Assembly (NCBI RefSeq): GCF_001715975.1
Contig: NZ_MARB01000028.1
Location: forward strand, 1 to 52,063
Direction of reading: 5' to 3'
DNA: 52,063 nt
Source of the DNA: Candidatus Thiodiazotropha endolucinida
GTDB lineage: Bacteria > Pseudomonadota > Gammaproteobacteria > Chromatiales > Chromatiaceae
Positions 1 through 25,229 of the stretch are shown piece after piece. A program made the translations under genes and the position numbers. Numbering within the stretch: position 1 is the first letter of the stretch; each line of letters starts with the position of its first letter. Below the pieces are notes generated by a model. It saw only the letters and a list, made by a program, of their open reading frames with translations, was not told where the DNA came from and made no database searches.

Positions 1-350
1 GTGTTGCCGTTGTCGTTGATCGTGACGTTGATCGTATCGGCGTCATTGCCTGCGGTATTGGTCGTACCGTGCAGATAGGTGATGTTGCTCGCGGTATTGA
101 AGTAGTTGTTCAGATCGCTCAGCGTGCCGGTCAACGTTCTGGCTGTGCTCGTCCCGCCGATCGTGATACCGGTCCCCGCGGCCGCACTCAGGTCGCCACC
201 GGTGCTGGTGGTCAGGGTGACCGTCAGTGTGCCTGAAGCGGCATCGACGTCAGCAAAGTCAATGGCCGACAGATCGATGTTGCTGGATACATCCTCGGTG
301 ACCGAGATATCGCTCGGCAACGAGCCGGCGTTGGTCGGGTTATCATTGAC
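1..350 (-). repeat. Cadherin-like module copy C (cut by window edge)
   Basis: This is the third copy in protein order of a module with DNPTNAGSLP, LNNYFNTASNITYLHG and INDNGN motifs. It is highly similar at the nucleotide level to 2278-2630 and 3168-3520. Confidence 0.75.
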
Positions 351-3300
351 CGCACCGACACTGATCGTCGCCGTCTCACCGATATCGCTGCTGGTATCAC
401 TGCCGCCGCCGTTGTCGGTCACCGTGTTCAAGGTGATGGTACGGGCCGTGGTCGAGGGATTATCCGCAGCCGGATCGATGCCGTAGGTAATACTCTCCAG
501 CACCAGTTCAGCAGCGGCGGCATTGGTGCCACCGGCAAAGGTGATCGTGACCACGCCGGTGGCCTGGGTGTAGCTGTAACTGTGCCCACCGCTGATGGCA
601 CCACTGCTGTCGCTGCCCAGGCCGCTGATCGCAGTCCCGTTGATGGTCAGGGTATCCGAGTTATCGATACCGCCGCCGAGGGCCAGCTGGGCCGAGGCGA
701 TGTCATCACCGGCCTCGATCGGATCGATTGTGACCGTGGCGAAGACCGCACCGGAGGTGGTGTCGGTATTCTCGGTCAGGGTGTCATTGGCGGCTGTGGC
801 AGCCAAGGTCGGGGTATCGTTGACCGCGGTGATTGTCACCGTCGTGCTGCCCACGGCCTGCAATGCGCCGCCGGATCCCTGGGCACCGGCATTACCGTCG
901 TTGAAGGTCCAATCGATTTGCACGCTGGCCGGCGGCACGTCGTTGCTGTTCGCGTAGGTGATCTGGCGCAGGATGTTGTTGACATCGGCCGAGGTGGGTG
1001 TCTGACCGTTGGCGTTGGTGAAGGTGATGACCAATTCGCCTGCCGTGGTCGTGGTGTCGAACGATGCAACGATCTGACTGCTCTTGATCAGATTGCTGCC
1101 CGATAGCGTGATGCCGTTGCCGTCGTTGAAACTGAAAACGTCTTCGCTGTTCGCGGCGCCGTTGCGCACTAAGGTCACACTCGCGCCGTCGTAGTCGCCG
1201 TTGCCGCCGTTCAAGGCATCGAGTTCCGGGTCGCTAATATCGACATCTGCATCCAATACGACGGCCGGTCCATCTTCGGTAAAGGCCGGAGTGCCGTCCA
1301 ATGTCGTGGTCGACACATTCTCGTACCAGGCAATCTCATCGGCGGAGTTTGCCGCGGACAGCACATCGAGGTCGCCATCGCTGGTCACGTCCGCCACGGC
1401 AACCGATGTGGCAAAGCCGGCGGTATTGGAAATGATGTGCTCGGAAAAGTTCTCGCTGCCGTCGTTCTCATACCAGGCGATCGTGGCATCCGTCGACGAC
1501 GCCGACAGTACGTCCAGATCGCCGTCCCCGTCCATGTCCCCCGCGGTTACCGATCGAGCACCGTTAGCCGATGTGGTGATTGTATGGGCGGTAAAGTTTT
1601 GGCTGCCGTCGTTTTCGTACCAGGCAATCTTGTCGTCGTTACCGGACGCCGACAGCACGTCCAGATCGCCGTCTCCATCGACATCGGCGGCGTCGACGGC
1701 GCGTGCACCGTCGGCGCTGGTGGTGACTGTCTGCTCAGTGAAGTTTCCGTTACCGTCATTCTCGTACCAGCCGATCGTATCCTCACCGAACGAGGCCGAC
1801 AGGATGTCGAAGTCCCCATCGCCGTCGACGTCTGCCGTGGTTACAGAACGATTTGTCGATGTCGTGTTCGCAATCGCATGGCGGGTGAAGTTCTGACTGC
1901 CGTCGTTCTCATACCAGGCTATCGTATTGTCATTGCTAGACGACGACAGTACGTCGAGATCGCCATCGCCGTCCACGTCTGCCGTTGTTACATCATTCGC
2001 GAAAATGGCCGTATTAGTAATTACGTGCTTGGTAAAATTTCCACTGCCGTCATTCTCATGCCAGGCGACGGTGTTGTCAGCTGACGAAGTCGACAGCACA
2101 TCGATATCGCCATCGCCATCCACATCGGCGGAATGCACCGTATTTGCGCCGTCCGCCGCGGCGTCGATGATCTGCTCGCCGAAGCTGGGAACACCGTCGA
2201 AACTCGGCGCCTCATTGACCGCGCTGATGTCCACATTCACAGTGCCAAGATCGATATCGGTGCCGCCACCGGCACCGGTGTTGCCGTTGTCGTTGATCGT
2301 GACGTAGATCGTGTCGGCGTCGTTGCCGGCTGTATGTGCCGTACCGTGCAGGTAGGTGATATTGCTGGCGGTATCAAAATAGTTGTTCAGATCCGTCAGC
2401 GTGCCGGTGAGGGTCAAGACCTTCGATGTGCCAGCGATCGTGATGCCGGTGCCGGCCGCCGCACTCAAGTTGCCGCCGATGCTGGTGGTCAGGGTGACCG
2501 TCAGCGTACCGCCGCCGGCGTCGACATCCGCGAAGTTGATGGCCGACAGATCGACGTTGCTCGAGACATCCTCGGTCACACTGATATCGCTCGGCAAGGA
2601 GCCGGCGTTGGTCGGATCGTCGTTGACCGTGCTCACAGTAACCGTGGTGTCGTAGTCGACACTGGTACCGCCATCGCCGTCAGTGAGTACAAAGCGTACG
2701 GTGCGTGCGCCCGTGGTCGGGTTTTCGGTGTCGGTGTTTTCGTAGGTGATGTTGCGAACGAGCGCGGTGACCGCAGTGGCATCGGCGTCGGCATCGAGCG
2801 TGATGACCAGATTGGTGCCGCCGCTGCCGCCGGTGAAGGTACCGATTTGGGTACCGCCGTAGCTGACGGCACTGCCCGATACCGTGATATTCGTTGGGCC
2901 GGCGCCCTGATCACGGATCGCGAGCACGTCTTCAGCATTGTCGCTGCCGGCCTGGAACGAAACGGTCAGCGTGCCGGTATCGAAATCGCTGCTGTCGACA
3001 TCGGCCACGATCGATGCGGTGCCTTGATCGATGACCTGGGCGCCGTCGTCTTCGTTGTAGGCCAGGCTGTCACCACCCAGATTAGCGATGGTCGGGACTT
3101 CGTTGTCCGGCGTGATATCGACATTGACCGTGCCGAGGTTGATGTTCGTACCGCCACCGGTGCCGGTGTTGCCGTTGTCGTTGATCGTGATGTTGATCGT
3201 GTCGGCATCGTCACCGTTGGTGTCTGGTGTACCGTGCAGGTAGGTGATATTGCTCGCGGTATTGAAGTAGTTGTTCAGGTCGGTCAGCGTGCCGGTCAGG

Positions 3301-6300
3301 GTCCGGGCAGTGCTCGTTCCACCGATCGTAATGCCGGTGCCGGCGGCGGCGCTCAGGTTGCCGCCGGTGCTGGTGGTCAGGGTCACGGTCAGGGTGCCGA
3401 CACCGGCATCGACATCACTGAAGTCAACCGCCGACAGATCGACATTGGAGGAAACATTCTCTGCGACGGTGATGTCGGTCGGCAAGGAGCCGGCGTTGGT
3501 CGGATCGTCGTTGACCGCGGTGATGGTGACGGTCGTGCTGCCCACTGCCTGTAACGCGCCACCGCTTCCTTGACTACCGGTATTGCCGTCATCAAAGGTC
3601 CAATCGATCTGCACACTGGCCGGCGGTGCGTCATTGCTGTTCGAATAGGTGATCTGGCGCAGGATATTGTCGACGTCGGCCGAGGTCGGTGTTTGACCGT
3701 TGGCATTGGTAAAGGTGATCACCAGTTCACCGGCCGTGCTAGTGGTGTCGAACGACGCGATGATCTGGCTGCTTTTGATCAGGTTGCTACCCGACAGCGT
3801 GATGCCGTTACCGTCGTTAAAACTGAAGACGTCGTCGCTGTTCGCGGCGCCATTACGTACCAGCGTTAGGCTTGCGCCGTTGTAGTCGCCCTGACCGCTG
3901 CTGAGCGCATCGAGCTCTGCGTCGCTCACATTGACATCGGCATCCAGCACCACCGCCGCGCCGTCTTCGACGAAGGTCGGCGCACCATCGAGCGTCGTTA
4001 CGCTCATCACGTTCTCGTACCATGTGACAGTGTCGGCGGCATCGTCGGTCGCCAGCACATCCACATCCCCATCGCCGTCCATATCGGCGACTGCAACCGA
4101 AAACGCCTCACCGGTCACACTGGCGATGGTATTGGCGGTGAAGTTCTCACTGCCGTCATTCTCGAACCAAACGACGTTGTCATCGGTGTACGATGCCGAT
4201 ATCACATCCAGATCGCCATCGCCGTCGATATCTGCTGCCGCAACCGCGCTGACGGGACCGGCAGCGGCAGTGATGGTATGCAGGGTGAAGTTTTCAAAAC
4301 CGTCGTTTTCGTACCAGGCGAGCTTATCGGAACTTCGCGATGCCGATAGCAGATCCAGATCGCCATCGCCATCCACGTCGACCGCGACGACCTGTCGAGC
4401 CTCGTTGGCCGAGGTTGTGACCGTGCGCGTGGTGAAGTTCTCATTACCGTCGTTCTCGTACCAGGCGACTCTGCCGTCGTATGCCGATGTCGAAAGTACG
4501 TCGAGGTCGCCGTCTTCATCCAGATCCACTGTGCCGACGAACGATGCGCCGGAGGCGCTGAACGTGATCGTACGGGTGGTGAAGTTCTCGTTGCCATCGT
4601 TCTCGTACCAGACGACGCGGTCGTCTCCCACCGACGCCGACAGCACGTCGATATCGCCGTCGCCGTCGACGTCGGCGGTCGTGACCGCGAATGCGGTGTT
4701 GGCCGACGTGGTGATGGTGTGGGCGGTGAAATTCTGGCTGCCGTCGTTTTCGTACCATGCGATCTTGTTGTCGTTTTGCGAAGCTGAGACAACATCGAGG
4801 TCGCCGTCACCGTCTATGTCCACCGTGGACACCCCCGCGGCGCCGTTGGCAGATGACGTAATCGTGTGGGCGGTGAACGACGGCGGCCCGGCGGCATCGA
4901 ATGTCGGTGCGGTGTTACTCAGGAGTTCCGCAATATCCGACGTGGACAGCGCACGATCATAGACGCGCACATCGTCCTGTAACCCGTTGAAGAAGGCGAT
5001 ATAACCCCCCGCGTCACGTACATTCCCGATCGCCATCGAGTCCAAGGAAGTTACAGAAGAGAAGAAACTCGATGTCGAACTGTTGCCATCTCGATAAAAG
5101 AGCCCGGCCAAGGAAACTTCTACACCGTCGATATAGATGCTGTTGCCGGAGCCATCGACTGTTACTGCAACATGATGCCAACTGCCGTCGGCGTAGCTGG
5201 CGTTTGTTTCAACGGAAAGGCTATAGAAGCTGTTGTTGACGACGTCGAAGAAGATCCGGCCATTGTCCATTCCGAACACAACGACACTGCTGGAGTCCGC
5301 GGTATCGGTGATCGAGAACATCGCTTGGGCGCCGCTATAAGAAGTGTTGATCCAGGCAGCAATCGTTCCCTCTGACAGGCCGCTAAAGGCACTCACATGA
5401 GTGTTGAGCTGGACGAAGTCGTTAAAGCCGTCAAGATTCAGGTTACCGTCGCCGATCGGATTGGACGATCCAGGATTGTCAATAGAGGCACCGTTCGTGA
5501 GTGTTCCATCATGGGAATTTCCCGAGCTGTCGGTCGCATCTGAATCGAGCGTCCAGTGACCGAGCAGGCCCGTGGTGATATCCAACCGGTTCAGCCATGC
5601 TTGCTGGCCGTCAATGCCGACAGCGACGTCAGTTTCAATTGAACCTTCAACGACCTCAAGATCCCAGTCGCCATCGAGTGTTTCATGACCTGTCACATCG
5701 TTGGAAGCGGCGACATCGGCGCCGGTCAGGGCGGCGAATTGCTCAATAAAACGTTCGCCGGTAGCGGTGGAGGCGATATCGCAGCCATAGATCAACCAGT
5801 CACCCCCGGGATTCAGGGCCTCACCCCAGGCACTGATCTGTTCTGCCGACTGCTGTAGTCCATCCTGGTTAAGCGTGGCATTACCCAGCCGTATCTCACC
5901 CTCTCCGCCGTGGCTGATCAGGTGGATAGCGTTAAGCCCCTGGTATTGCGCGAGAGTTTCGTTAAGCTGTTCGATGCCGTTAGCGGAACTGTCGAGCAGT
6001 ACGATCTCGAAGCTGCGCCCGTCTCCATCACGGCTGATCAAATCATCGACCAAGGACTGATAATCCGGTGTCGCGGGATCGATGATCACCAGTTCCCGGG
6101 TCGATATATCGGATTCGTCAGTCTGGTTTGACAGGACGGATTGTAACCCGGCTTCAATGGTCTGTAGCTCTGTTTCATCAACCTGCTGCTCGACATCGTT
6201 CGATGCCGGATCGACAGCAACTCCCACCAGGTCGGCGGAGAGCAGGATTCGGGGCTCCAGCTCTTCGCAGATCAGGGTATTGGACCGTTTTTTGGATCGC

Positions 6301-6311
6301 CTGCGTCTCAT
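1..6311 (-). CDS. Giant LEPR-XLL / DUF4347 repetitive surface or secreted protein (N-terminal 2,103 codons; 3' end outside window)
   Basis: The frame is open from ATG 6311 to the window edge, so the protein exceeds 2,100 residues and its C-terminus is not visible. Its ATG overlaps the stop of the upstream adaptor gene (ATGA), indicating translational coupling. Order of parts: a basic start (MRRRRSKKR); the LEPR-XLL motif LEPRILLSA at residues 18-26; a DUF4347 domain at about 72-240 with SHGGEGE (His134) and YGCDIA (Cys177); a LamG-like domain at about 250-458; six FG-GAP/VCBS units of 49 residues with DxDGDGDxD calcium loops (about 470-766); cadherin-like and VCBS-type modules; a second six-unit FG-GAP array; then more modules. 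No ordinary Sec signal peptide is visible. Proteins of this architecture are usually large exported adhesin-like proteins; function here is inferred. The neighbouring HlyD-type genes probably serve its export. Confidence 0.9.
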   Translation of the reverse strand, partial: MRRRRSKKRSNTLICEELEPRILLSADLVGVAVDPASNDVEQQVDETELQTIEAGLQSVLSNQTDESDISTRELVIIDPATPDYQSLVDDLISRDGDGRSFEIVLLDSSANGIEQLNETLAQYQGLNAIHLISHGGEGEIRLGNATLNQDGLQQSAEQISAWGEALNPGGDWLIYGCDIASTATGERFIEQFAALTGADVAASNDVTGHETLDGDWDLEVVEGSIETDVAVGIDGQQAWLNRLDITTGLLGHWTLDSDATDSSGNSHDGTLTNGASIDNPGSSNPIGDGNLNLDGFNDFVQLNTHVSAFSGLSEGTIAAWINTSYSGAQAMFSITDTADSSSVVVFGMDNGRIFFDVVNNSFYSLSVETNASYADGSWHHVAVTVDGSGNSIYIDGVEVSLAGLFYRDGNSSTSSFFSSVTSLDSMAIGNVRDAGGYIAFFNGLQDDVRVYDRALSTSDIAELLSNTAPTFDAAGPPSFTAHTITSSANGAAGVSTVDIDGDGDLDVVSASQNDNKIAWYENDGSQNFTAHTITTSANTAFAVTTADVDGDGDIDVLSASVGDDRVVWYENDGNENFTTRTITFSASGASFVGTVDLDEDGDLDVLSTSAYDGRVAWYENDGNENFTTRTVTTSANEARQVVAVDVDGDGDLDLLSASRSSDKLAWYENDGFENFTLHTITAAAGPVSAVAAADIDGDGDLDVISASYTDDNVVWFENDGSENFTANTIASVTGEAFSVAVADMDGDGDVDVLATDDAADTVTWYENVMSVTTLDGAPTFVEDGAAVVLDADVNVSDAELDALSSGQGDYNGASLTLVRNGAANSDDVFSFNDGNGITLSGSNLIKSSQIIASFDTTSTAGELVITFTNANGQTPTSADVDNILRQITYSNSNDAPPASVQIDWTFDDGNTGSQGSGGALQAVGSTTVTITAVNDDPTNAGSLPTDITVAENVSSNVDLSAVDFSDVDAGVGTLTVTLTTSTGGNLSAAAGTGITIGGTSTARTLTGTLTDLNNYFNTASNITYLHGTPDTNGDDADTINITINDNGNTGTGGGTNINLGTVNVDITPDNEVPTIANLGGDSLAYNEDDGAQVIDQGTASIVADVDSSDFDTGTLTVSFQAGSDNAEDVLAIRDQGAGPTNITVSGSAVSYGGTQIGTFTGGSGGTNLVITLDADADATAVTALVRNITYENTDTENPTTGARTVRFVLTDGDGGTSVDYDTTVTVSTVNDDPTNAGSLPSDISVTEDVSSNVDLSAINFADVDAGGGTLTVTLTTSIGGNLSAAAGTGITIAGTSKVLTLTGTLTDLNNYFDTASNITYLHGTAHTAGNDADTIYVTINDNGNTGAGGGTDIDLGTVNVDISAVNEAPSFDGVPSFGEQIIDAAADGANTVHSADVDGDGDIDVLSTSSADNTVAWHENDGSGNFTKHVITNTAIFANDVTTADVDGDGDLDVLSSSSNDNTIAWYENDGSQNFTRHAIANTTSTNRSVTTADVDGDGDFDILSASFGEDTIGWYENDGNGNFTEQTVTTSADGARAVDAADVDGDGDLDVLSASGNDDKIAWYENDGSQNFTAHTITTSANGARSVTAGDMDGDGDLDVLSASSTDATIAWYENDGSENFSEHIISNTAGFATSVAVADVTSDGDLDVLSAANSADEIAWYENVSTTTLDGTPAFTEDGPAVVLDADVDISDPELDALNGGNGDYDGASVTLVRNGAANSEDVFSFNDGNGITLSGSNLIKSSQIVASFDTTTTAGELVITFTNANGQTPTSADVNNILRQITYANSNDVPPASVQIDWTFNDGNAGAQGSGGALQAVGSTTVTITAVNDTPTLAATAANDTLTENTDTTSGAVFATVTIDPIEAGDDIASAQLALGGGIDNSDTLTINGTAISGLGSDSSGAISGGHSYSYTQATGVVTITFAGGTNAAAAELVLESITYGIDPAADNPSTTARTITLNTVTDNGGGSDTSSDIGETATISVGAVNDNPTNAGSLPSDISVTEDVSSNIDLSAIDFADVDAASGTLTVTLTTSTGGDLSAAAGTGITIGGTSTARTLTGTLSDLNNYFNTASNITYLHGTTNTAGNDADTINVTINDNGN
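836..1290 (-). repeat. FNDGNG-type module, copy 2 (partner at 3520-3990)
   Basis: This is the second copy of the module that follows the FG-GAP arrays. It shares FSFNDGNGITLSGSNL and VQIDWTFNDGN-type motifs with the first copy. Confidence 0.7.
1315..2190 (-). repeat. FG-GAP/VCBS array 2 (six units of about 147 bp)
   Basis: This is a second six-unit array of the same 49-residue motif, about 2.7 kb further into the gene. The final unit carries a degenerate loop (VTSDGDLD). The same type of block (ending in the FNDGNGITLSGSNL motif) follows both arrays, so array plus follow-on module appears to have been duplicated as one segment. Confidence 0.85.
2278..2630 (-). repeat. Cadherin-like module copy B
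   Basis: This is the middle copy of the module with SLPSDISV, TGTLTDLNNYF and YLHGTAHT. It begins with nearly the same 30 bases as the copies at 1 and 3168. The very recent look of the repeats suggests recombination or gene conversion between copies. Confidence 0.75.
3168..3520 (-). repeat. Cadherin-like module copy A
   Basis: This is the first copy in protein order of the module with SLPTDITV and LNNYFNTASNITYLHG. It lies next to the block at 3520-3990, which is itself repeated at 836-1290. Confidence 0.75.
3520..3990 (-). repeat. FNDGNG-type module, copy 1 (partner at 836-1290)
   Basis: The module carries LSGSNLIKSSQI, TNANGQTPTSADV and QIDWTF motifs. It is nearly the same in sequence as the block at 836-1290. 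In both cases it directly follows an FG-GAP array. Confidence 0.7.
4015..4900 (-). repeat. FG-GAP/VCBS array 1 (six units of about 147 bp)
   Basis: Within the giant gene, six consecutive units of about 49 codons each carry the pattern DxDGDGDxDVLSAS followed by WYENDG and NFT. One unit has DLDEDGD in place of the usual loop. The last unit lacks the NDG-NFT ending. These are putative calcium-binding beta-propeller blades. Confidence 0.85.
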
Positions 6312-7504
6312 CGCTCGACGATCCTGGTCTCGATTCCCAAGTCCGTGAGCTGCTGCCGATAATTATCGACCACCCTGCGGTTTTTGAAATATCCCAGGGA
6401 GATATGCCCTTTCAACGATCCCTTGGCGATGACCCAGGTATCCTCCACACCCTTTTGCCTGAGAGTCTCCGCCTTGCGCTTAGCCTTCTTCAGCGGCAGC
6501 AGTGAATCCTGGGTTACCAGCAGGTAGTGCGGCTTTCGTGCAGTTTTTTGACCAGCGCCATCGGTGGTGCTCACCGCTTCGGTCTTCGATCCGACTGTTG
6601 CTTTCTCGACAGGTTCTTCAAACTCTTTTGTGGGTTGGGCATGTGCGACCGCATCAGCCTGGTTCAACTTCACAGGCTTAGGCTGCCTGTCAGCCATCTT
6701 ATCGAGAAATCGCACCTGGCAACGCAACCCGCTGGTCAGGCGATAGTCGTCATTGGGGATCTCCAGACGGATGCGGAATGTGCCGCTGGCCGCGTCGAGT
6801 ATCGGATCGACGATCTTCACCACTGCCCGATGATTGCCGCCCACCGGCAACTCCGGCCTGACCATCGCCAACTGCCCGGTCTTGACCTTACCCAACATCG
6901 AGACCGGTGCGACGACTTCGACGCGCAACGGATTGATCTGGGCGATTTTTACGATGGGACGCTCCTCCACGGACTCGCCCGGATTGAGGTAGCGCTCAAC
7001 TACGATACCTCCGACAGGACTACGAATCGTATGGCGGTTATAGAGCGCTTCGGCCTGCTTCAGGTCGAGTTCCGCGAGAAACTTGTTCTCTTTCGCCTGG
7101 GCCAGTTTATAACGGGTCAGGCGGGTCTCGGTCTCGACCTTGTCGAAATCCTGAAAGGAGGAGAGGTTTTTTTCGTGCAGCTCCTTGACCCGGTTCAGCT
7201 GACGCCGACCGTAGGCGAGACTGACCTCCTGCAGACGCACGTCGCTGTTGATCGATGCCTTGGCGCGAGCATATTCCAGGGCTGCCTGTTCAACCTCGGA
7301 TTCAAGCTTGGCGATGACCTGGTTCCGGTCAATGCTGTCCCCCACGTCCACGGAGACGGCCTCGAGAATACCATCGATACGGGAGCTGAGCTCCACGGTC
7401 ATGAAGGGTTCAATTACACCGTCAAGTGATTCGGTTCCATCCGCAATAAGTGTTGATGAAAAGAGGCAGATCATGCCTCCTATCGTTAGATACCATTTGC
7501 TCAT
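6308..7504 (-). CDS. HlyD/RND-type periplasmic adaptor with C-terminal SPOR-like domain
   Basis: 398 residues. An N-terminal hydrophobic segment (residues 5-20) ends in SSTLIADG and reads as a signal peptide or anchor. Residues about 30-70 are the first half of a biotinyl-lipoyl domain (VELSSRIDGIL, VDVGDSIDRNQVIAKLES). A helical hairpin follows at about 70-165, then the second lipoyl half (IRSPVGGIVVERYLNPGESV) and a beta-barrel region. After a linker rich in charged residues, the last 80 residues (from HYLLVTQDSLLPLKKA to the GIETRIVER end) resemble a SPOR domain, which in known proteins binds denuded peptidoglycan. A SPOR domain on an adaptor is unusual. The stop codon overlaps the start of the giant LEPR-XLL gene by ATGA, tying the two products together. 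It probably bridges the inner membrane and envelope for export; no pump gene is nearby. Confidence 0.85.
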   Translation of the reverse strand: MSKWYLTIGGMICLFSSTLIADGTESLDGVIEPFMTVELSSRIDGILEAVSVDVGDSIDRNQVIAKLESEVEQAALEYARAKASINSDVRLQEVSLAYGRRQLNRVKELHEKNLSSFQDFDKVETETRLTRYKLAQAKENKFLAELDLKQAEALYNRHTIRSPVGGIVVERYLNPGESVEERPIVKIAQINPLRVEVVAPVSMLGKVKTGQLAMVRPELPVGGNHRAVVKIVDPILDAASGTFRIRLEIPNDDYRLTSGLRCQVRFLDKMADRQPKPVKLNQADAVAHAQPTKEFEEPVEKATVGSKTEAVSTTDGAGQKTARKPHYLLVTQDSLLPLKKAKRKAETLRQKGVEDTWVIAKGSLKGHISLGYFKNRRVVDNYRQQLTDLGIETRIVER

Positions 7505-7744
7505 GTCGTTTATTTACTTTTTTCACACGCTTGCCAACACAGGTTACAAAGACCGAGGATCCGTTATTGCAAATGATTCTTATTCCCTTTCGATATCAAG
7601 GCTTTGCATTCAACTAATCGGCTGAAAAGTTGCTACCTTGACCAACAGAACGTGACTTTTTAAACAAAATTAACACTTTATGACCCGAATTCCCAAAGCA
7701 CTCTACCTAATTATGGTTACTTCCCCATCGAAGCCTTTGGCGGT

Positions 7745-9865
7745 TCAAGCCCTAAACCGCTTGAGAAACATCTGCCTTATTGAACGGTACCATTGCCAGC
7801 CCAATGGCAGTGGACGGTGCTCGAAACGGACAATGATGCGCTCACCCAAACGGGTAATCCGCTGATCCAGCTGAAGTCGGATCTCAAACACGGCCTCCAG
7901 GGGCCGCGTGCCGTCCTCATCTTCGGGATGAAGCACGATCATACCGCCCCCCAGGCGACCCAACGCGGGGCTGGGAAGGCGCTGTCGTGATTCGGGGATA
8001 TGTCGCTGCAGGCTTACCGGCAGGTCGTCGGCAGGTCTGTCGGCGTAGACCGCTTTTATCTTGCGGGAAAACTGCCGCACCAGGCCGATATCCTGCTGTG
8101 ATACAACCACCCTGATCTCCGGCTGACGGTTATCCAGCACATAGCCGATCAACTCACCCTGGGTTAAAAACCGGCCGGGCAGATCACCGGGTTGCTGTAC
8201 TAGGAATGTGCCTTCTAGGGGACTGCGGAGGGTAAGCCGCGATGCCTGTTCCCGCTTTTGTGACACCTCTGTTTCAATCAGGCGGATCTCTTCCAGCACG
8301 ATTTCCGCTTTGACGGTTTCGTCTTCACTGACCAGGGTCTCATACTTCACTTGCAATGCGCTCAGCCGTCCGGCCAGGCGTTTCAACTCAGTCTGTAGAA
8401 AAGGGTCCTCCATCGCTACGAGGGGCTGGTTTCGCGTAACAGAGCTGTCAGATGTTGCCAACAGCTCGACAATCTCACCTTCGGCACCTGCACGCACTTC
8501 CGCACCGTCCGGCGGAAGAATCACGCCCTCGGCATGGGTTGCATGGGGAACGGGGATGACGAACAGGATCAACAGCAGTGACAGAGCGATCGAGGCAGTC
8601 ACCAGCAGGGCGCGCCTGCGCCGGTTGACGAGCTGCCGGCTGGTGAAGAGATAGTTCAACTGCTTGGCGAGGGGCAGTATCACCATCCCGATCAGGGCCC
8701 AGACTGCGATTGCCTTACCCACCAGCGGATAGCTTTCAGCCACGAACAGCATGATCGTAATGAGGATAAAGAACCGGTAAAAGAATGCGGCGATCCCGTA
8801 GAAGATGAACCAGCCCCGTTCCCAGTCGGTCTGGGCGGGTGAGTCTGCATGCTCCACACCGAACAAATAATGTTGCAGCAGATAGCCGAGGTAGCGGTTG
8901 GCGCGAATGGATAGGTTGGGTATGTCGATCAAATCGGCAAAGACATAGTAACCATCGAATTTCAGCAGCGGATTGCCATTCACCAACAGGGTCGAGAGCC
9001 CACCGATCAACATCATGTTGTAGGCCGCGGCGTTGACCCACCCGGGTCCGGTGGCCAGCCACAGCCAAAGTCCCAGGCTGGCAAGCAGCAGTTCCGCCAT
9101 GATGCCGGCCGCACCGACTACAATCCGCGCCCTCCGCTCGCTGAATCCGCTGGCGGCGGATGCATCCACGTAGGGCATGGGTATGAGGGCCAGCAGCAAT
9201 ACCCCGACCTGATGAATTTCACCCCCCCAATACTTGGTGGCGAATCCGTGTGCTGCCTCGTGGAATAGCTTCATCAGTAGGTAGACCGCACCTATCAGCA
9301 ACAGATTATCCGCCGACAGAAGCTGGCTGGTGACGTTACCCGTGATCTCCTGCCAGTGCAGCGCCGCCTGCAGCAACCCGCTCAGCACGATCAGCAGCCA
9401 CAATCCCATGCCGACTCGACCGAACAGCGGCTGTACCGCCGGCATCAATCTGTTCAGCACTCTATCCGGATCCCATAAAGGGAGGCGCAGTGAAAGTGGG
9501 TTGCGCAGCTGTCGCAGCCATTGAGGTGGCTGTTTGCGGCGCTCGAGAATCTTCAACACTTCGCTTTCCGGGCTATCCATGAGCGCCCCACCCCCTTTCA
9601 GCTGCATCAGCAGGCGTATAAAAGCCTCTTGATCCAGTGGATGACTCTGGGGTTGTTGCACCTCTTGCCAGATCATTTCAAGGGTGCGATTGCCGTCAAA
9701 ACGGCTGATCAGCTTATAGGCCCCAGCTGAAAGGCGAAAATGACGTTCGCTGATCGGGTCCTGAAGCAGATACCAGGTCTCTCCCTGATAGCGCTGCCGG
9801 CGGATCACAACCTGCGGATTGAGGCGGGGACGGGCGTCGGCGATCTGCTGCCAAATAGCGTCCAT
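7745..9865 (-). CDS. PqqD-like / M50 (site-2-protease-type) / lipoyl fusion membrane protein
   Basis: The chosen ATG at 9865 overlaps the upstream stop (TGATG) and follows a GGTGGGG ribosome site; an earlier in-frame start at 9928 would overlap the upstream gene by 64 bases. Product 706 residues. The N-terminal 100 residues (NPQVVIRRQRYQGETWYLL, then LSAGAYKLISRFDG) resemble PqqD-like domains, a fold that binds leader peptides in RiPP systems. A multi-spanning membrane section follows with the zinc protease motif HEAAH (residues 202-206) and a later NPLLKFDGYY whose Asp304 matches the third ligand of S2P enzymes. After the last membrane helix comes a lipoyl/HlyD-type region (EVRAGAEGEIVEL) with a coiled hairpin and RSPLEGTF. 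Likely an intramembrane protease tied to export of the giant protein. The substrate is inferred. Confidence 0.85.
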   Translation of the reverse strand: MDAIWQQIADARPRLNPQVVIRRQRYQGETWYLLQDPISERHFRLSAGAYKLISRFDGNRTLEMIWQEVQQPQSHPLDQEAFIRLLMQLKGGGALMDSPESEVLKILERRKQPPQWLRQLRNPLSLRLPLWDPDRVLNRLMPAVQPLFGRVGMGLWLLIVLSGLLQAALHWQEITGNVTSQLLSADNLLLIGAVYLLMKLFHEAAHGFATKYWGGEIHQVGVLLLALIPMPYVDASAASGFSERRARIVVGAAGIMAELLLASLGLWLWLATGPGWVNAAAYNMMLIGGLSTLLVNGNPLLKFDGYYVFADLIDIPNLSIRANRYLGYLLQHYLFGVEHADSPAQTDWERGWFIFYGIAAFFYRFFILITIMLFVAESYPLVGKAIAVWALIGMVILPLAKQLNYLFTSRQLVNRRRRALLVTASIALSLLLILFVIPVPHATHAEGVILPPDGAEVRAGAEGEIVELLATSDSSVTRNQPLVAMEDPFLQTELKRLAGRLSALQVKYETLVSEDETVKAEIVLEEIRLIETEVSQKREQASRLTLRSPLEGTFLVQQPGDLPGRFLTQGELIGYVLDNRQPEIRVVVSQQDIGLVRQFSRKIKAVYADRPADDLPVSLQRHIPESRQRLPSPALGRLGGGMIVLHPEDEDGTRPLEAVFEIRLQLDQRITRLGERIIVRFEHRPLPLGWQWYRSIRQMFLKRFRA

Positions 9866-11610
9866 CAACCCCACCAGCGCCAGAGCTGCAAACGCAGCCA
9901 GTCGATCAAACGGTGGCTGACGAGCCACAGCAGGCTGCGCTTGCCGGCATCGATCTTCGCCACGCCCTGCAACCCAGGTCTCAGATGTTCTTCCGCATCC
10001 TCCAGTTCCGCTTCCAGGGTAAACAGGTAGCTGCCTTCGCTGGCCGTGGACAGGGGTAGGATGCGCTTCACGCTGAAGCCATAGTCGAGATCGGGATACC
10101 CCGCCAGGCGCAAATGACCGAACTGTCCGATCTGCACATCGGCAATATCCAACTCATCCACCTGCAGCATGACACGGTAGCTATCGAGAGGGGCAATCTT
10201 GAACAGCTCTTCTCCCCGCTTCAGAGGGGCGCCAAGGGATTGAGTGAGATCCCCACTGACGATGACACCATCCAGGGGCGCCTTGATAAGACTCCTTACA
10301 AGTTTCATCTCCACCAGGTCGAGTTCCGCCTGCACCTGCCGGCGTTGCGCCTGCAGCACCGAGACCCGGCTGCGCTCATGGGTCGCCAGCGCCTCGCGCT
10401 GCTCCCGCTTCAACTTCGCCAGCTCGGTCCGCCATTTGGCCTGCTCGAGCTTCAGGTCCTTGTCATCCAGCTGACACAGCAAGACCCCCTCAGCCACGAT
10501 ATCGCCCGCTTTGGCGGACACCTCTTGCAGATAGCCATCAAACGGAGAGGTGATGACACGCTGGATTCGCCCCTCCAGATTGGCGCGGGCATCGATATGG
10601 TAGTCAACCTCGATCAACCCCGACACTACGAGGATCGAGATAAGAGCGAGCAGACTCAGCTTCACTCCCAAGCCTTGCGGACCCAGCCAGCTTTTAAATC
10701 GCTGTTGCAGGCGATCGTGGACCAAGCGATGGAGGGATTGCTCACTGCGCTGCCGGTGATGCAGCAACAGCCCGATCAAACCGGCCGCCTGCTGACACTC
10801 CGTCTGTTCTTGCGGCGTGAACGGCTGCAGTCGATGACGCTCCAACAGCAACGCCCCGACCGGTATGTCGCCCGTCTTCAACGGAATCGTACAGAGCGTC
10901 GCCTGCCCCACTACCCCGGCCAGGGCCTGTTGGCTGTTCAGCAGCAGATCGCTCTGTGATGTCGCGGGCGGATAGTGCAGCAATGCCTGTTGATCGATGG
11001 CCTCGAACATCGCTTCCTTGAAGGCGCGCACCAATCCGGTTTCCCGCTTGATCTCGACGGGGGGGTATGTGGCCGAGATCTCGAGACGGCGCGCATCCCC
11101 CAGCGCCAGGGTTACCCGGTCGCAATGGAACTGTTTGGCAAGGAGTTTGACAATCGCCGCCGACGAGAGCGGCCTCTCGGTCATGCGTTCTACCCAGTGG
11201 GCCCCTGTCGCTTGGCTTCTGTTCGCTTGTTTCAACAACAGCTTCAACCAGCGCAGGCTCCACTGCAGCGCCTGTATTGCCGCCTGCTGTTTCCGTACCG
11301 ACCGGGGACTCATACGGAGTGCAACAACCCACTTCGGCTGACCGCGGGAAACCAGCGGCACTGCCATGAAATCTGAACCCTGAACAGATCGGGAGGCGGG
11401 AACGATCAACTGCCTGCGGGTCTCAAAAGCCTTGAGCGCAACCTTCAGCAAGGCCTTTTCCGGTTGCTCGTCCTCCGGCCAGCGTACAACGCTGATCTCC
11501 CCACTCTCCGTGGAGCCTTTTTCAACGACAATAGCCGACTGAATGCCGCTGACCAAACGGCACAGCTGTTCCAGCCATTGCTGTATCACTACCTGGGAGG
11601 ATGAAGGCAT
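9865..11610 (-). CDS. GAF-like / HlyD-type adaptor fusion
   Basis: The ATG at 11610 is preferred to an in-frame TTG nine bases upstream; AGGAG lies 11 bases before it. Product 581 residues. The first 320 residues contain two GAF-like regions: an N-terminal one around SAIVVEKG and FMAVPLVSRG, and a second around FHCDRVTLAL through GDIPVGALLLERH. A transmembrane helix follows (LSLLALISILVVSGLIEV), then the lipoyl halves ITSPFDGYLQEVSAKAGDIV and LIKAPLDGVIVSGD around a coiled coil, and a barrel domain ending in LRPGLQGVAKIDAG. Topology would put the GAF regions in the cytoplasm and the adaptor in the periplasm. It is the first gene of the export cluster and is coupled to the M50 fusion by TGATG. 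The ligand of the GAF part is unknown. Confidence 0.85.
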   Translation of the reverse strand: MPSSSQVVIQQWLEQLCRLVSGIQSAIVVEKGSTESGEISVVRWPEDEQPEKALLKVALKAFETRRQLIVPASRSVQGSDFMAVPLVSRGQPKWVVALRMSPRSVRKQQAAIQALQWSLRWLKLLLKQANRSQATGAHWVERMTERPLSSAAIVKLLAKQFHCDRVTLALGDARRLEISATYPPVEIKRETGLVRAFKEAMFEAIDQQALLHYPPATSQSDLLLNSQQALAGVVGQATLCTIPLKTGDIPVGALLLERHRLQPFTPQEQTECQQAAGLIGLLLHHRQRSEQSLHRLVHDRLQQRFKSWLGPQGLGVKLSLLALISILVVSGLIEVDYHIDARANLEGRIQRVITSPFDGYLQEVSAKAGDIVAEGVLLCQLDDKDLKLEQAKWRTELAKLKREQREALATHERSRVSVLQAQRRQVQAELDLVEMKLVRSLIKAPLDGVIVSGDLTQSLGAPLKRGEELFKIAPLDSYRVMLQVDELDIADVQIGQFGHLRLAGYPDLDYGFSVKRILPLSTASEGSYLFTLEAELEDAEEHLRPGLQGVAKIDAGKRSLLWLVSHRLIDWLRLQLWRWWG

Positions 11611-12243: not shown

Positions 12244-13281
12244 TCAGTGTTGTAACTCACGAAGTTTCTCTGCTACCTGTCCCGACTCAAACAGCTCCAT
12301 CGCCAATCGAATACCTTTTCCGATGTCATCAGTCTTGTTGCCGAGACAGATCCTGACTCCCGCATTGTAGAGAATGGCATCGAGATGTCTGTCGCTTTTT
12401 CCGGTCAGGGCCTCTTCTACGAGTCGCGCAGTCACATCCACGGATTCACAGGGGTGGTGGGTTTTGTGACTGAAACTGTAATCGGCGGGATCGAGGGTGT
12501 ACTTCGATAGAGTGCCGTTATTGAAATCGGCAACGGCCACCGGTTCCAGCGGCAACTCGTCACAACCATCCAACCCCTGCACTGCGATCACCCGCCGCTG
12601 TCCCCGTTCACCCGCAGCGGTGGCAAAACGCTCCAGGAAACTCTTGTGCGCAGCTCCAATCAATGAATAAACTGCACCTGCAGGATTGAGCATAACCTCG
12701 CAGGCGTGCAGAAACGAACGATAGAAGAGCGTCTGACGTATCGGCTTCAACCGCTCCACTCCATGCAGGTAACTTGCAGCATGCAGATGACCGAATCCCT
12801 TTTCTTCAATATCCCTCGACACCCGATCCGGTTCCCGATAGGCCGGAATACCCAATGCTTCAAGCAGACGAGCGGTTGTAACACCGTCTTTGGGCGGAAG
12901 CCCGGTACTCGAGTGCATCACCACCGGTACACCCGCCGCGGCGGTGACTATGGCTGCCGCGAGGCTTAGATGAAGTGCGTTTTTGCGTCCATCATAGGGT
13001 CCGTTGCAATTAAGCAGACCGTCAACCTTCGGGGCCATCAAGGCGGCACTCCCTTCCATGGCATCGAGAAATCCCTTCATCTCCTCTACCCGCGCACCCT
13101 TGAAGCGCATTGCGGTGAGGAATGCCCCGACCTGGGCAGGTTGCGCCTCGGCGGACATCAGGAATGTCAACGCCTCGCAGGCCTCTTCGCGGGACATATC
13201 CTTGGCTCCGCGGGGGCCCTTGGCAGTGGCGATCAGGCGCTTGCGAAATACCTCAGCCGCCTGGCTCTTCTGTTGTTGCAT
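12244..13281 (-). CDS. TrpD-like glycosyltransferase family 3 protein (YbiB/TrpD2 type)
   Basis: 345 residues with AGGAG seven bases before the ATG. The helical N-terminus (MSREEACEALTFLM, QVGAFLTAMRFKG) and the core match anthranilate phosphoribosyltransferase relatives. However, the glycine-rich PRPP loop of true TrpD (GTGGD) is replaced by GPYDGRKNALHLS, while VMHSSTGLPPKDGVTTARLLEALG is retained in part. That points to the TrpD2/YbiB group, members of which bind nucleic acids rather than make tryptophan. No tryptophan genes are nearby. It is separated from the preceding gene by a REP-like hairpin. Confidence 0.85.
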   Translation of the reverse strand: MQQQKSQAAEVFRKRLIATAKGPRGAKDMSREEACEALTFLMSAEAQPAQVGAFLTAMRFKGARVEEMKGFLDAMEGSAALMAPKVDGLLNCNGPYDGRKNALHLSLAAAIVTAAAGVPVVMHSSTGLPPKDGVTTARLLEALGIPAYREPDRVSRDIEEKGFGHLHAASYLHGVERLKPIRQTLFYRSFLHACEVMLNPAGAVYSLIGAAHKSFLERFATAAGERGQRRVIAVQGLDGCDELPLEPVAVADFNNGTLSKYTLDPADYSFSHKTHHPCESVDVTARLVEEALTGKSDRHLDAILYNAGVRICLGNKTDDIGKGIRLAMELFESGQVAEKLRELQH

Positions 13282-13321
13282 TGCTTACTCCTGATCGACA
13301 GACGATACATAGTTACGCCGT

Positions 13322-13351
13322 AGGGTGCGGCTTGCCGCACCGAATTTTTTT
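13322..13351. repeat. REP-like hairpin with T run
   Basis: The segment GGTGCGGC-TT-GCCGCACC is a perfect 8-bp inverted repeat, followed on the plus strand by GAATTTTTTT. Both flanking genes run on the minus strand, so a plus-strand terminator has no obvious transcript to stop. A dispersed REP element is more likely. Confidence 0.5.
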
Positions 13352-13368
13352 AGGAAGCGCTATTACGT

Positions 13369-14628
13369 TCAATTACAACTGGGGCCGTTAACGAACACAA
13401 AGGGAACACGCTGACAAGCCTTGAAATCAGCCGCATCCACCACGGTAGTGTTGGCCACGTCCTGACGTGCCGCAATCAGCGCCTTCTCAATGCGCCGATC
13501 GCTGATATGGTAGCGGGGATCGAGCCCAATGCCGTCTATGTCTTTGCAGGGTTCATGGAACAACAGCCGATAGAGATCACTCATCATGTTATAGCGGCTC
13601 GACATCAGTATATTGGTTGCCTGTTTGATCTGTTGCAGGGACTCCTTTTCATGACCGAACAGGCTGGTCGCCAACATTACCGAGATGGCATGCAGCACAT
13701 CGTATTGCACATGGGCGATGAAAACGATCAGATGGCGCTGAGTCAATACAACATTCTCACGCCAGGCCCATCGGATCATACCTCCCAGCAACAGGCTGAA
13801 AAATTCCGGGACACCCCATTCCATACCCAAACCCACCGATGCCAGGGATTCCACCAGACTGAACGTTGGATGACCGGCCAGCAGACGCTGGGTGAGGACA
13901 TTGTCCGCCACCCCGTGAAGCATCGGTACATCCTGCTCTTCAAATGGAATACCGAGACCATCAAAGAGTTGGCGGTACATGACGATATGGGTGGTTGAAT
14001 TAAGCAGGCCGGACAGATCCGGGTAACTGTCGATGCTATGTGTACCCACGCCATACTCGTCGGCCAACAGCTGCGCCAGAATGATCTGCGCCAGTTCAGA
14101 CACCCGCTCGTTGAGACTGCCATAGGGGAGGTCGATGAAACCTGAAAAGCGTCCCTGCGCCAGGGCTACACACTGGCGGGTGTTTTTGACCTGATTGAAA
14201 TAGTTGGTGGCAAATACACTCAGTTGCGCGGCATCGAATTCACCCTTGAAGATGCGTACGAAACAGGGGTGGCTCCAGACCGGGTGCGACATGACATGCT
14301 CATGGAGTTCGAGAAACATCTCCTGCAGTGCGCCGGGCCTGAACAGGTCCAGTTCACTGAACTTGTTGGCAGGATCTCGGTCAGCGATGATTCGCATATC
14401 CTCAAACAACCGGTGCAGTGGATTGTCTGCTGACGCCAGTTCGTCTATCACACGGGTAAAGTCTTCCAGCTGACTCTGCCTGAATTCAGCCAACACCTGT
14501 TCCGTATCCAGCGATAAAAGATTGGGGAGCGGATGCACGCCAGGCAGCAGTGTTGCGGTTCCATCACTATTCACCTGCAATAGATCAGAGAAACGCCATG
14601 GACTATCGCCGGGTATCGCGGTCGTCAT
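13369..14628 (-). CDS. Heme-oxygenase-like (HDO/TenA-type) iron-containing redox protein
   Basis: 419 residues from the ATG at 14628, which has AGGAG 10 bases upstream; another ATG at 14637 sits only one base from that site. The mostly helical core has conserved acidic/histidine patches typical of the heme-oxygenase-like diiron superfamily: FATNYFNQVKNTRQC, LLADEYGVG, VPMLHGVADNV and VAHVQYDVLHA-like helices. Such proteins oxidise or desaturate small substrates or scavenge metal; the substrate cannot be told from sequence. It is followed closely (43 bases) on the same strand after oxyR, so it may share the OxyR transcript. Confidence 0.75.
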   Translation of the reverse strand: MTTAIPGDSPWRFSDLLQVNSDGTATLLPGVHPLPNLLSLDTEQVLAEFRQSQLEDFTRVIDELASADNPLHRLFEDMRIIADRDPANKFSELDLFRPGALQEMFLELHEHVMSHPVWSHPCFVRIFKGEFDAAQLSVFATNYFNQVKNTRQCVALAQGRFSGFIDLPYGSLNERVSELAQIILAQLLADEYGVGTHSIDSYPDLSGLLNSTTHIVMYRQLFDGLGIPFEEQDVPMLHGVADNVLTQRLLAGHPTFSLVESLASVGLGMEWGVPEFFSLLLGGMIRWAWRENVVLTQRHLIVFIAHVQYDVLHAISVMLATSLFGHEKESLQQIKQATNILMSSRYNMMSDLYRLLFHEPCKDIDGIGLDPRYHISDRRIEKALIAARQDVANTTVVDAADFKACQRVPFVFVNGPSCN

Positions 14629-14670
14629 ATCAATCATACTCCTGGTGATACTACTCAGTCCTGACTGCTC

Positions 14671-24255: not shown

Positions 24256-25223
24256 GAACTGACTTTTTTCGCCTTTCTCAGCAATGACTCCGGAAGTCTG
24301 ATCCCGCTCTGCTCCAGGATTGCGTGGTTAATCCAGATATCCCATTTGCGATTGGAGACAATAGGGATTTCACTGGGTTTTGTTCCATCAAGTATTGCCA
24401 ATGCCACCAATGCGGCCCACTCCCCATGCTCTTCAGGTATTTTTGTCAGGCCAAGCAGTGTATATGGCATCATCCAGCCATGATTGGTCAAGGTCAGGGT
24501 TTTCGTGGATTCAACAACAAATTCCGAAACAGATTTTGTGTTCCAGTCATTGATACCCGAATTACTGCCAATCACTACAAAATCGAATTCCTGTGCTTCC
24601 TTGTATGCACTCATCCACTCCTTGGTGGTGTTTACCAGATGATCCTCCAAAACGATGCCATGCTTGTCAGCCGCACGCTTGAATCGCTTCAGATTTTTCC
24701 TTTCAGTCAAAGTCGATGCACCGATATAGATTGCCCGGTGTGCACCTCCCTGTATATGTCTTGCGTTGTCGAACAGGACATCAATAGGCGCCACTTCTAC
24801 CATTCCCGTGGTGTTGCTGTAGGGAAATCCATACTCATCAACATTCCAGTTGATACCGCAAAACACAAATGGAACCTGGTGATCCTTAAAAAAGGGTTTA
24901 ATGACATACTTGGCGGCATTATCATCTGCGGTGATCACAACATCGGGTCTCCAACGCTCGATCAACTCCCTCGCTTTCCTTGCCGCCTCCTTTTTAGACA
25001 CTTCGTCCTTATGCCTTTTTGTATCCATATCAAACTGTTTTAATTCACATTTACCGCCTAAGGTTTCACGTAAACCGCTCTCTACCCCGTCTGACCAGGC
25101 ATATCCTGTATGGTAGGAGGAGATAAACAGACATTTACTGGCGACCGCCTGGCTGGATAGCAATGCTGAAAACAAAAGAACCAGAGCGATTAATATATTT
25201 TTATGTGTTGTTATTACCACCAT
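24252..25223 (-). CDS. Periplasmic ABC-type substrate-binding protein
   Basis: Product of 323 residues from ATG 25223 (an in-frame TTG two codons upstream is less likely). The signal peptide reads KNILIALVLLFSALLSSQAVA. The mature region has SSYHTGYAWSDGVESG, DVVITADDNAAKYV, FVFCGINW and IGASTLTERKN motifs of the ABC substrate-binding family PF04392 (amino acid or similar ligands). No permease or ATPase gene is adjacent. Instead its stop overlaps the start of the CHASE-GGDEF-EAL gene, so it probably presents a ligand to that sensor rather than to a transporter. The ligand is unknown. Confidence 0.88.
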   Translation of the reverse strand: MVVITTHKNILIALVLLFSALLSSQAVASKCLFISSYHTGYAWSDGVESGLRETLGGKCELKQFDMDTKRHKDEVSKKEAARKARELIERWRPDVVITADDNAAKYVIKPFFKDHQVPFVFCGINWNVDEYGFPYSNTTGMVEVAPIDVLFDNARHIQGGAHRAIYIGASTLTERKNLKRFKRAADKHGIVLEDHLVNTTKEWMSAYKEAQEFDFVVIGSNSGINDWNTKSVSEFVVESTKTLTLTNHGWMMPYTLLGLTKIPEEHGEWAALVALAILDGTKPSEIPIVSNRKWDIWINHAILEQSGIRLPESLLRKAKKVSS

Positions 25224-25229
25224 ATTCAA

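Follow-up and report, generated by a model that had tools for sequence, protein, structure and literature searches.

The window analysed here, 52,063 bases that form the whole of contig C28 in the 4.49-Mb genome of Candidatus Thiodiazotropha endolucinida (G000 below), carries four genes, all on the minus strand, that encode a GAF-HlyD protein, a fusion of a PqqD-like domain, an M50 protease and a periplasmic adaptor, a further HlyD adaptor with a SPOR-like tail (the third HlyD below), and a giant protein that begins with a LEPR-XLL motif. On balance the locus appears to be a SecA-less branch of a widespread, dedicated system that both processes LEPR-XLL giants and carries them across the cell envelope. 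The sequence-level basis for this reading is that genomes with the giants tend also to have the PqqD-M50-adaptor protein, frequently encoded close by, with the GAF-HlyD protein, the third HlyD and mostly also a SecA paralogue encoded alongside. Complete genomes of the genus repeat this gene order, and so do members of other families and phyla, which is more than chance would give. A functional link between the giants and the locus genes is almost certain on this evidence, and export through the envelope or display at the surface is the likely fate of the giants. In the subtype represented by the window, a gene of PAS-GGDEF or PAS-histidine-kinase type follows the giant.

Linkage of the giants to the protease across genomes

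Co-occurrence was counted for the LEPR motif (matches over the NF012209 cut-off), the protease (E≤1e-40) and the SecA paralogue, and the two other adaptors were followed by counting neighbourhoods. Among 276 genomes of the class, 38 carry the protease and 28 the LEPR motif, with both present in 24 (Fisher p 7e-21); among 299 genomes of the phylum the corresponding figures are 71, 43 and 42 (p 8e-31). The two samples overlap slightly and the genomes are related, and the p-values accordingly overstate independence. The association of giants and protease lies far beyond chance, and the refuting condition set by an earlier reading of the window from sequence only, a lack of co-occurrence, did not come about. 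Within the genus (22 genomes including G000, with M50 proteins 94–62% identical) the LEPR motif was found in 9 of the 14 protease-bearing genomes and in 0 of the 8 without the protease; in two of the five exceptions the contig ends at the protease gene, and in three the giant sequence is unreadable (N).

The association extends to gene position. Of the 96 distinct LEPR matches from the class and phylum searches, half (48) have a listed M50 match on their contig, in 46 cases within ~20 kb and in the other two 610 kb (G127) and 36 kb (G392) away. Contig sharing was computed for 65 rows; the other 31 were compared by eye, and no listed M50 match lies on the contig of any of these. In a scan of named genomes, at least 516 relatives of the locus were confirmed among 588 candidate stretches, and the best 80 (L051–L130) were kept for all locus counts. 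The GAF-HlyD gene adjoins the M50 gene in 74 of them, the M50 gene standing at the contig start in the remaining 6; the third HlyD is present in 55/80, in 49 cases within 4.5 kb downstream; and a LEPR motif, sought by regular expression, occurs in the flank of 17/80 (L110 was dropped as a chance match). When other named genomes were searched, 24/27 gave a LEPR match. Relatives occur in records named alpha-, beta-, gamma- and deltaproteobacteria and Nitrospira, and in Desulfofustis (L058) a single row holds the genes for GAF-HlyD, M50, SecA, HlyD and LEPR giant and then the beginning of a gene that looks like a sensor.

Two further sets of neighbours were seen around the relatives. An open reading frame (ORF) of ~105 amino acids (aa) lies upstream of GAF-HlyD in 21/80 loci (including L063, L065, L070 and L124), ~2–3 kb before the M50 gene; two of two tested match DUF3467, which makes this protein a candidate small partner. 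Locus L117 has Trp-halogenase and radical SAM genes and L127 has SapC (all confirmed with Pfam), and related clusters recur in 5–10 of the 80 loci, some as antisense frames; they could represent RiPP-like modification of the giant (RiPP, ribosomally synthesized and post-translationally modified peptide) or an unrelated adjacent cluster.

The window genes and their proteins

The features of the locus, as read from the window, are as follows.

9865..11610, minus strand: GAF-HlyD, 581 aa; ATG at 11610, stop at 9867-9865; GAF-like region, one membrane helix (by eye), HlyD adaptor
9863..9867, minus strand: TGATG stop/start overlap from GAF-HlyD to the M50 gene, read from the sequence
7745..9865, minus strand: fusion of PqqD-like domain, M50 site-2-type metalloprotease and periplasmic adaptor, 706 aa, ATG at 9865
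9572..9832, minus strand: PqqD-like domain, residues ~12-98, profile positions 17-102, limits approximate
9248..9262, minus strand: HExxH zinc motif (H202, E203, H206), from the protease alignment
7811..8551, minus strand: adaptor domain of the protease (MacA/AcrA/MexA/EmrA-type fold), residues 439-685
7505..7744, minus strand: 240-bp gap between the protease gene and the third HlyD gene; site of the SecA paralogue in most of the 80 relatives
6308..7504, minus strand: third HlyD adaptor, 398 aa; signal-peptide-like start (by eye); SPOR-like tail at ~6344-6490
3..6311, minus strand: giant protein gene, incomplete, 2,103 codons with no stop down to base 3
6204..6266, minus strand: LEPR-XLL motif of the giant, residues 16-36 (NF012209)
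5595..6092, minus strand: DUF4347 of the giant, residues 74-239, containing His134 and Cys177

The ATG of the giant (6311) overlaps the stop of the third HlyD as ATGA (6311-6308), and the giant gene is cut by the contig end, leaving any gene beyond it invisible in the window. The sequence-only reading had described four same-strand genes in two overlap-coupled pairs separated by a 240-bp gap, and each of these points was borne out when the sequence was read again. Its inference, that adaptors and protease would form an export and processing complex acting on the giant, is supported in part. Its picture of the cluster was sound for these genes and incomplete in three respects: it lacked a fifth gene, which lies off the contig, the SecA paralogue of most relatives, and the invariant His and Cys of DUF4347.

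All three non-giant proteins have adaptor parts. In the protease the C-terminal part folds as a periplasmic adaptor; in the other two, the window's HlyD adaptors, Pfam gives HlyD_D23/HlyD_3 matches, with HlyD_D23 in both. The GAF assignment is borderline (PF01590 22.5 bits, cut-off 22.4; GAF_2 and GAF_3 below cut-off). In the third HlyD the RND-type adaptor model TIGR01730 scores 116.2 bits (cut-off 94.9; RND, resistance-nodulation-division), and SPOR is the sole family match of its tail, at 16.0 bits and below the cut-off of 21. Such SPOR-like tails are sub-threshold in 4/5 pieces, with nothing in the fifth, and the third HlyD of L107 carries LysM_OapA over the cut-off; by sequence these tails point to peptidoglycan.

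The window protease taken alone scores 20.1 bits for M50, below the Pfam cut-off of 27.2, and has no Pfam match to PqqD at E≤0.01. Among the 69 aligned members of its family, at the same E limit, M50 is matched in 63 and PqqD in 43; H202, E203, H206 and D304, which correspond to the HExxH and distal Asp of M50 metalloproteases, are invariant in 69/69. The protease profile matches the solved PqqD structure 3g2b (E=0.0039), and a structure model of the region has three strands followed by three helices; judged from these matches, the N-terminal domain is PqqD-like.

The window giant scores 25.4 bits for LEPR-XLL (NF012209, cut-off 17; 31.1 bits in the genome search) and 172.6 bits for DUF4347, and it has 10 FG-GAP_3 stretches and a laminin-G-like domain. 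In 11/11 aligned giants E19, R21, L23, A26 and D27 of the LEPR-XLL stretch are invariant, as are H130, H134 and C177 of DUF4347. The HxxSHG...YGC pattern of DUF4347 looks similar to that of caspase/C80-type peptidases, and H134 and C177 would be the His/Cys dyad of a clan CD cysteine peptidase; the C80 model touches 1/11 giants, weakly (E 0.21), and the solved DUF4347 protein 9qpe matches with E 0.013. PF07595 (Planctomycete extracellular motif) weakly touches 2/11 (best E 0.058). The largest LEPR-XLL open frame seen, of 19,427 aa, is on contig C115 of genome G389.

Giants read to completion in the genus show what lies beyond the contig end. In G004 (3,495 aa), G003 (4,285 aa), G005 (2,230 aa) and G015 (2,058 aa) the giant is followed by a gene of ~1,000 aa that overlaps it by 4 bp or begins within 12 bp; in G004 this fifth gene encodes PAS, two GGDEF stretches and EAL, in that order. 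The family member G031 has PAS-histidine-kinase-like and REC-GGDEF-EAL-like proteins (domains assigned by eye) in the same place. Since the sensor gene follows the giant in these relatives, the unit of the subtype is taken as GAF-HlyD, M50, HlyD, giant, sensor. The C-termini of giants of this subtype have in common a hydrophobic stretch and, after it, W...DP..(V/I)L in 10/10 examined (two of the ten, L058 and L078, have the SecA paralogue), and giants of other loci have different ends; the C-terminal part of the window giant lies off the contig. The N-terminus lacks a strong hydrophobic helix in 8/10 giants examined (best 19-residue mean hydropathy ≤1.04); values of 1.46 and 1.47 were obtained for L107 and G308, the latter from a partial sequence whose start is not the real N-terminus.

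Several other window genes were recorded. The gene upstream of GAF-HlyD is a glutaredoxin-DUF4124 gene, and a 422-aa protein encoded at 13369-14637, which has no Pfam match at 1e-5, adjoins the locus in other members of the genus. Elsewhere are overlapping genes for an ABC_sub_bind protein and then a CHASE-PAS-GGDEF-EAL protein (21439-25229), an AAA ATPase with GspA C39-like and peptidoglycan-binding domains (31934-33751), and adjacent TamB and TamA-type (POTRA-Omp85) genes (34652-40131).

The SecA paralogue and the proposed route across the envelope

The sequence-only reading had stated that no ABC (ATP-binding cassette) or RND pump gene is present in the cluster, and family searches of the four proteins agree; no pump domain was found in the four window genes or in the fifth gene of G004. 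By motif, ABC-type ATPases occur near the M50 gene in 4/80 loci (within 10 kb, with flanks often shorter, and with RND genes not searched in the relatives). Where that reading had proposed looking for the missing pump and outer-membrane partner, the search was partly rewarded, with a SecA paralogue as candidate motor in most relatives, none in G000, and TolC-like genes in a few.

The SecA paralogue is encoded with the protease in 70/80 loci, usually right behind the protease gene, and in many its start overlaps the protease stop. The 10 loci without a SecA call comprise four that end at a contig edge (L059, with a 114-aa end piece that clusters with SecA, L087, L105 and L112), five with no SecA paralogue in the stretch examined (L051, L064, L085, L107, L130), and L070 (Parabeggiatoa), where a degenerate 511-aa paralogue near the protease (12342-13877) scores 24.0 bits for SecA_DEAD (cut-off 24.6), a possible step towards loss of SecA. 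Among 65 paralogues with both ends, GEGKT is kept in 61 and DEAD in 59. Aligned with seven housekeeping SecAs from other genomes, the paralogues stop near position 660/931 (occupancy 0.29 at 661-680 and 0 from 681); wing, two-helix finger and zinc tail belong to the missing part, as does the larger share of the helical scaffold. Consistent with a retained core, the paralogue tested has DEAD, preprotein-binding and P-loop domains by Pfam. In the 276 class genomes, 18 exceed the SecA threshold, two of which have frames of 899 and 907 aa that look housekeeping; the remaining 16 all carry the protease at E≤1e-150, and 15/17 of their paralogue matches are ≤300 bp from the protease match (coordinates compared by eye).

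The genus departs from this pattern. In G000 no SecA match was found at the paralogue threshold and SecA occurs only in one 943-aa frame; in all 22 genus genomes SecA matches fall in one frame of 942–980 aa (in G012, in two contig-end pieces). A search for a SecA remnant at the 240-bp gap gave nothing convincing, the best match (E 0.009) falling within the sequence that codes for M50. The genus protease groups with that of Thiogranum L052 (SH-aLRT, the Shimodaira–Hasegawa-like approximate likelihood ratio test, 99), where the row runs SecA, a 346-aa ORF and a LEPR giant. Because of this grouping with a SecA-bearing locus, the simplest reading is that the paralogue was lost in the Thiodiazotropha line. 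Rows that lack SecA and in which only HlyD separates protease and giant are found as well in G031, G489, G200, L107 and G219 (in G219 and L064 the starts of HlyD and giant are identical, and the two were counted once); G308 has a SecA paralogue just beyond the sensor genes on the opposite strand, and G106 has one on another contig.

TolC-like genes cluster with 6/80 loci, PF02321 being confirmed in the 4 tested, and that of L071, directly behind the third HlyD, exceeds the TIGR01844 cut-off. These genes speak in favour of exit through the outer membrane, with TolC as the conduit an even call. Two TolC matches over cut-off are present elsewhere in G000.

The proposed mechanism would run as follows. 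The cytosolic PqqD-like domain of the protease would recognise the giant through its N-terminal LEPR-XLL stretch, docking of this kind being a tentative assignment. A motor would then thread the giant into the envelope; this would be the truncated SecA paralogue in genomes that have one and, in Thiodiazotropha, the housekeeping Sec machinery or another engine. The two membrane-anchored adaptors and the periplasmic HlyD could make up a channel leading to TolC, in the manner of the adaptors of tripartite machines with ABC, RND or MFS (major facilitator superfamily) pumps. M50 would cleave the giant, probably close to the N-terminal leader, which is the part common to the giants; that M50 cuts the giant is again held with less than even confidence. 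In the window subtype the conserved hydrophobic C-terminus might keep the giant within the envelope, with this retention tuned by the neighbouring sensor, perhaps through cyclic di-GMP.

Several observations weigh against reading the locus as a branch of such a giant-handling system. With no SecA paralogue in G000, a motor of that kind cannot drive the window copy; TolC is linked in so few loci; and a Lap-type type I locus is present elsewhere in G000. The protease occurs without LEPR in 14/38 protease-bearing genomes of the class and 29/71 of the phylum, which may mean either that the protease acts on further substrates or that cases escape the 24-position LEPR model. Conversely, G224 of the class combines a LEPR frame of 7,373 aa with the lack of any protease match at 1e-40, and LEPR without protease is also found in G102 (726-aa frame), G139 (99 aa) and G245 (168 aa) of the class and in G549 (64 aa), the sole such genome in the phylum sample. 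Finally, 3/27 of the named locus-bearing genomes searched gave no LEPR match.

The best surviving alternative, although improbable, is that the giant crosses by SecYEG with housekeeping SecA, and that the adaptors and protease form a sensor-linked periplasmic device for retention and release, Lap-like but built of other parts. Thiodiazotropha, G031 and G489, which have GAF-HlyD, M50, HlyD, giant and sensor in a row without the paralogue, agree with it, as do the tails of the third HlyD, which point to peptidoglycan (SPOR-like, or LysM_OapA in L107), and the hydrophobic C-terminus of the giants. The lack of a strong N-terminal hydrophobic helix in most giants examined argues against it, and it leaves unexplained why most relatives have a SecA paralogue of their own.

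Rather less probable still is export of the giant by the ordinary Lap-type type I system of the genome, the cluster serving only to process, anchor or sense it. G000 does have an LssB/LapB-type exporter (1041.8 bits, cut-off 693.1) as well as its TolC matches. This exporter, however, is on another contig (G000:C26; L148 4890-19105), together with a 2,608-aa protein, an HlyD-like protein and one TolC; the 2,608-aa protein is presumably LapA-like, including a LapA-like start (judged by eye). Moreover, the subtype giants end in the conserved hydrophobic module, which is not known as a type I secretion signal, and ABC-type ATPases are scarce near the M50 gene. That the adaptors serve the efflux of small molecules in an unrelated system, with the giant beside them by chance, is very improbable: the TIGR01730 match of the third HlyD would suit it, but it is already largely contradicted by the way the genes co-occur and adjoin in many families and several phyla, by the ATGA and TGATG coupling and by the lack of a pump gene in the cluster.

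Returning to the giant-handling system, the locus could represent a protein export machine of a kind not described before. In its strongest form, which must be rated unlikely as it stands, this would be a new type of secretion machine for giants, in which the scaffold-poor SecA, the PqqD-M50-adaptor and GAF-HlyD replace an ABC, RND or MFS pump and feed an adaptor-TolC conduit, Thiodiazotropha having dispensed with the motor and using the PqqD-M50-adaptor as a gate. Either way, the locus offers one conserved, testable gene set for giants with LEPR frames reaching the size given above, and the shortened SecA would separate the roles of the SecA motor core from those of the scaffold and finger.

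Comparison with known systems

No description of the locus or of an export route for LEPR-XLL giants was found in the PubMed Central (PMC) literature; preprints and most subscription journals lie outside that search, and a prior description elsewhere cannot be excluded. Large adhesin-like proteins with HlyD/AcrA-like neighbours, similar in this respect to the locus, are described for Ca. Thiodiazotropha (PMC11171427); those adhesins differ in that FhaB domains are named for them and that a type I permease/ATPase lies close by, and LEPR occurs 0 times in the passages on them. Other papers place LEPR-XLL in a ~8,000-aa Vibrio protein (PMC10868602), call DUF4347 uncharacterised in PA0256 (PMC8262886) and list a DUF4347 protein in a proteome table (PMC12322963).

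Three known systems were considered for the locus and rejected: a type I system, as there is no ABC exporter among the four genes despite the HlyD-type adaptors; an RND, MFS or ABC tripartite pump, as no pump gene was found in the operon; and accessory Sec (SecA2) for the window, as no second SecA was found in G000. The locus is set apart from them because a defining part of each was looked for and not found.

Among families that share parts with the locus, LEPR-XLL (NF012209) and PF07595 have an N-terminal motif in common with the giant, and neither model's description line names an export route. The RiPP-type M50 proteases (daptide NF041824, YydH/LiaK NF058609) resemble the locus protease in combining a PqqD-like region with M50, and NF041824 scores 164.4 bits on the window protease (residues 34-418 of a 727-aa frame), below its cut-off of 300. 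The locus protease differs from them in its added adaptor domain and in having a giant as neighbour, no search for short precursor peptides having been made.

Accessory Sec resembles many relatives of the locus in placing a second SecA near a very large protein, whereas the locus paralogues end near position 660 of a 931-aa SecA, have HlyD adaptors and an M50 protease as neighbours, and in the one case tested fall short of the cut-offs for the SecA and SecA2 models compared. The type I giant adhesins (LapA/LapBCE, SiiE), like the locus, combine a giant repetitive protein with an HlyD adaptor, and this subtype also has a GGDEF/EAL-type gene adjacent. Unlike those systems, the locus has no ABC exporter and has three adaptor proteins, of which one carries GAF and another PqqD-M50 as fusion partner; and where Lap adhesins start with a retention module, its giant, as in the window, starts with LEPR-XLL and DUF4347.

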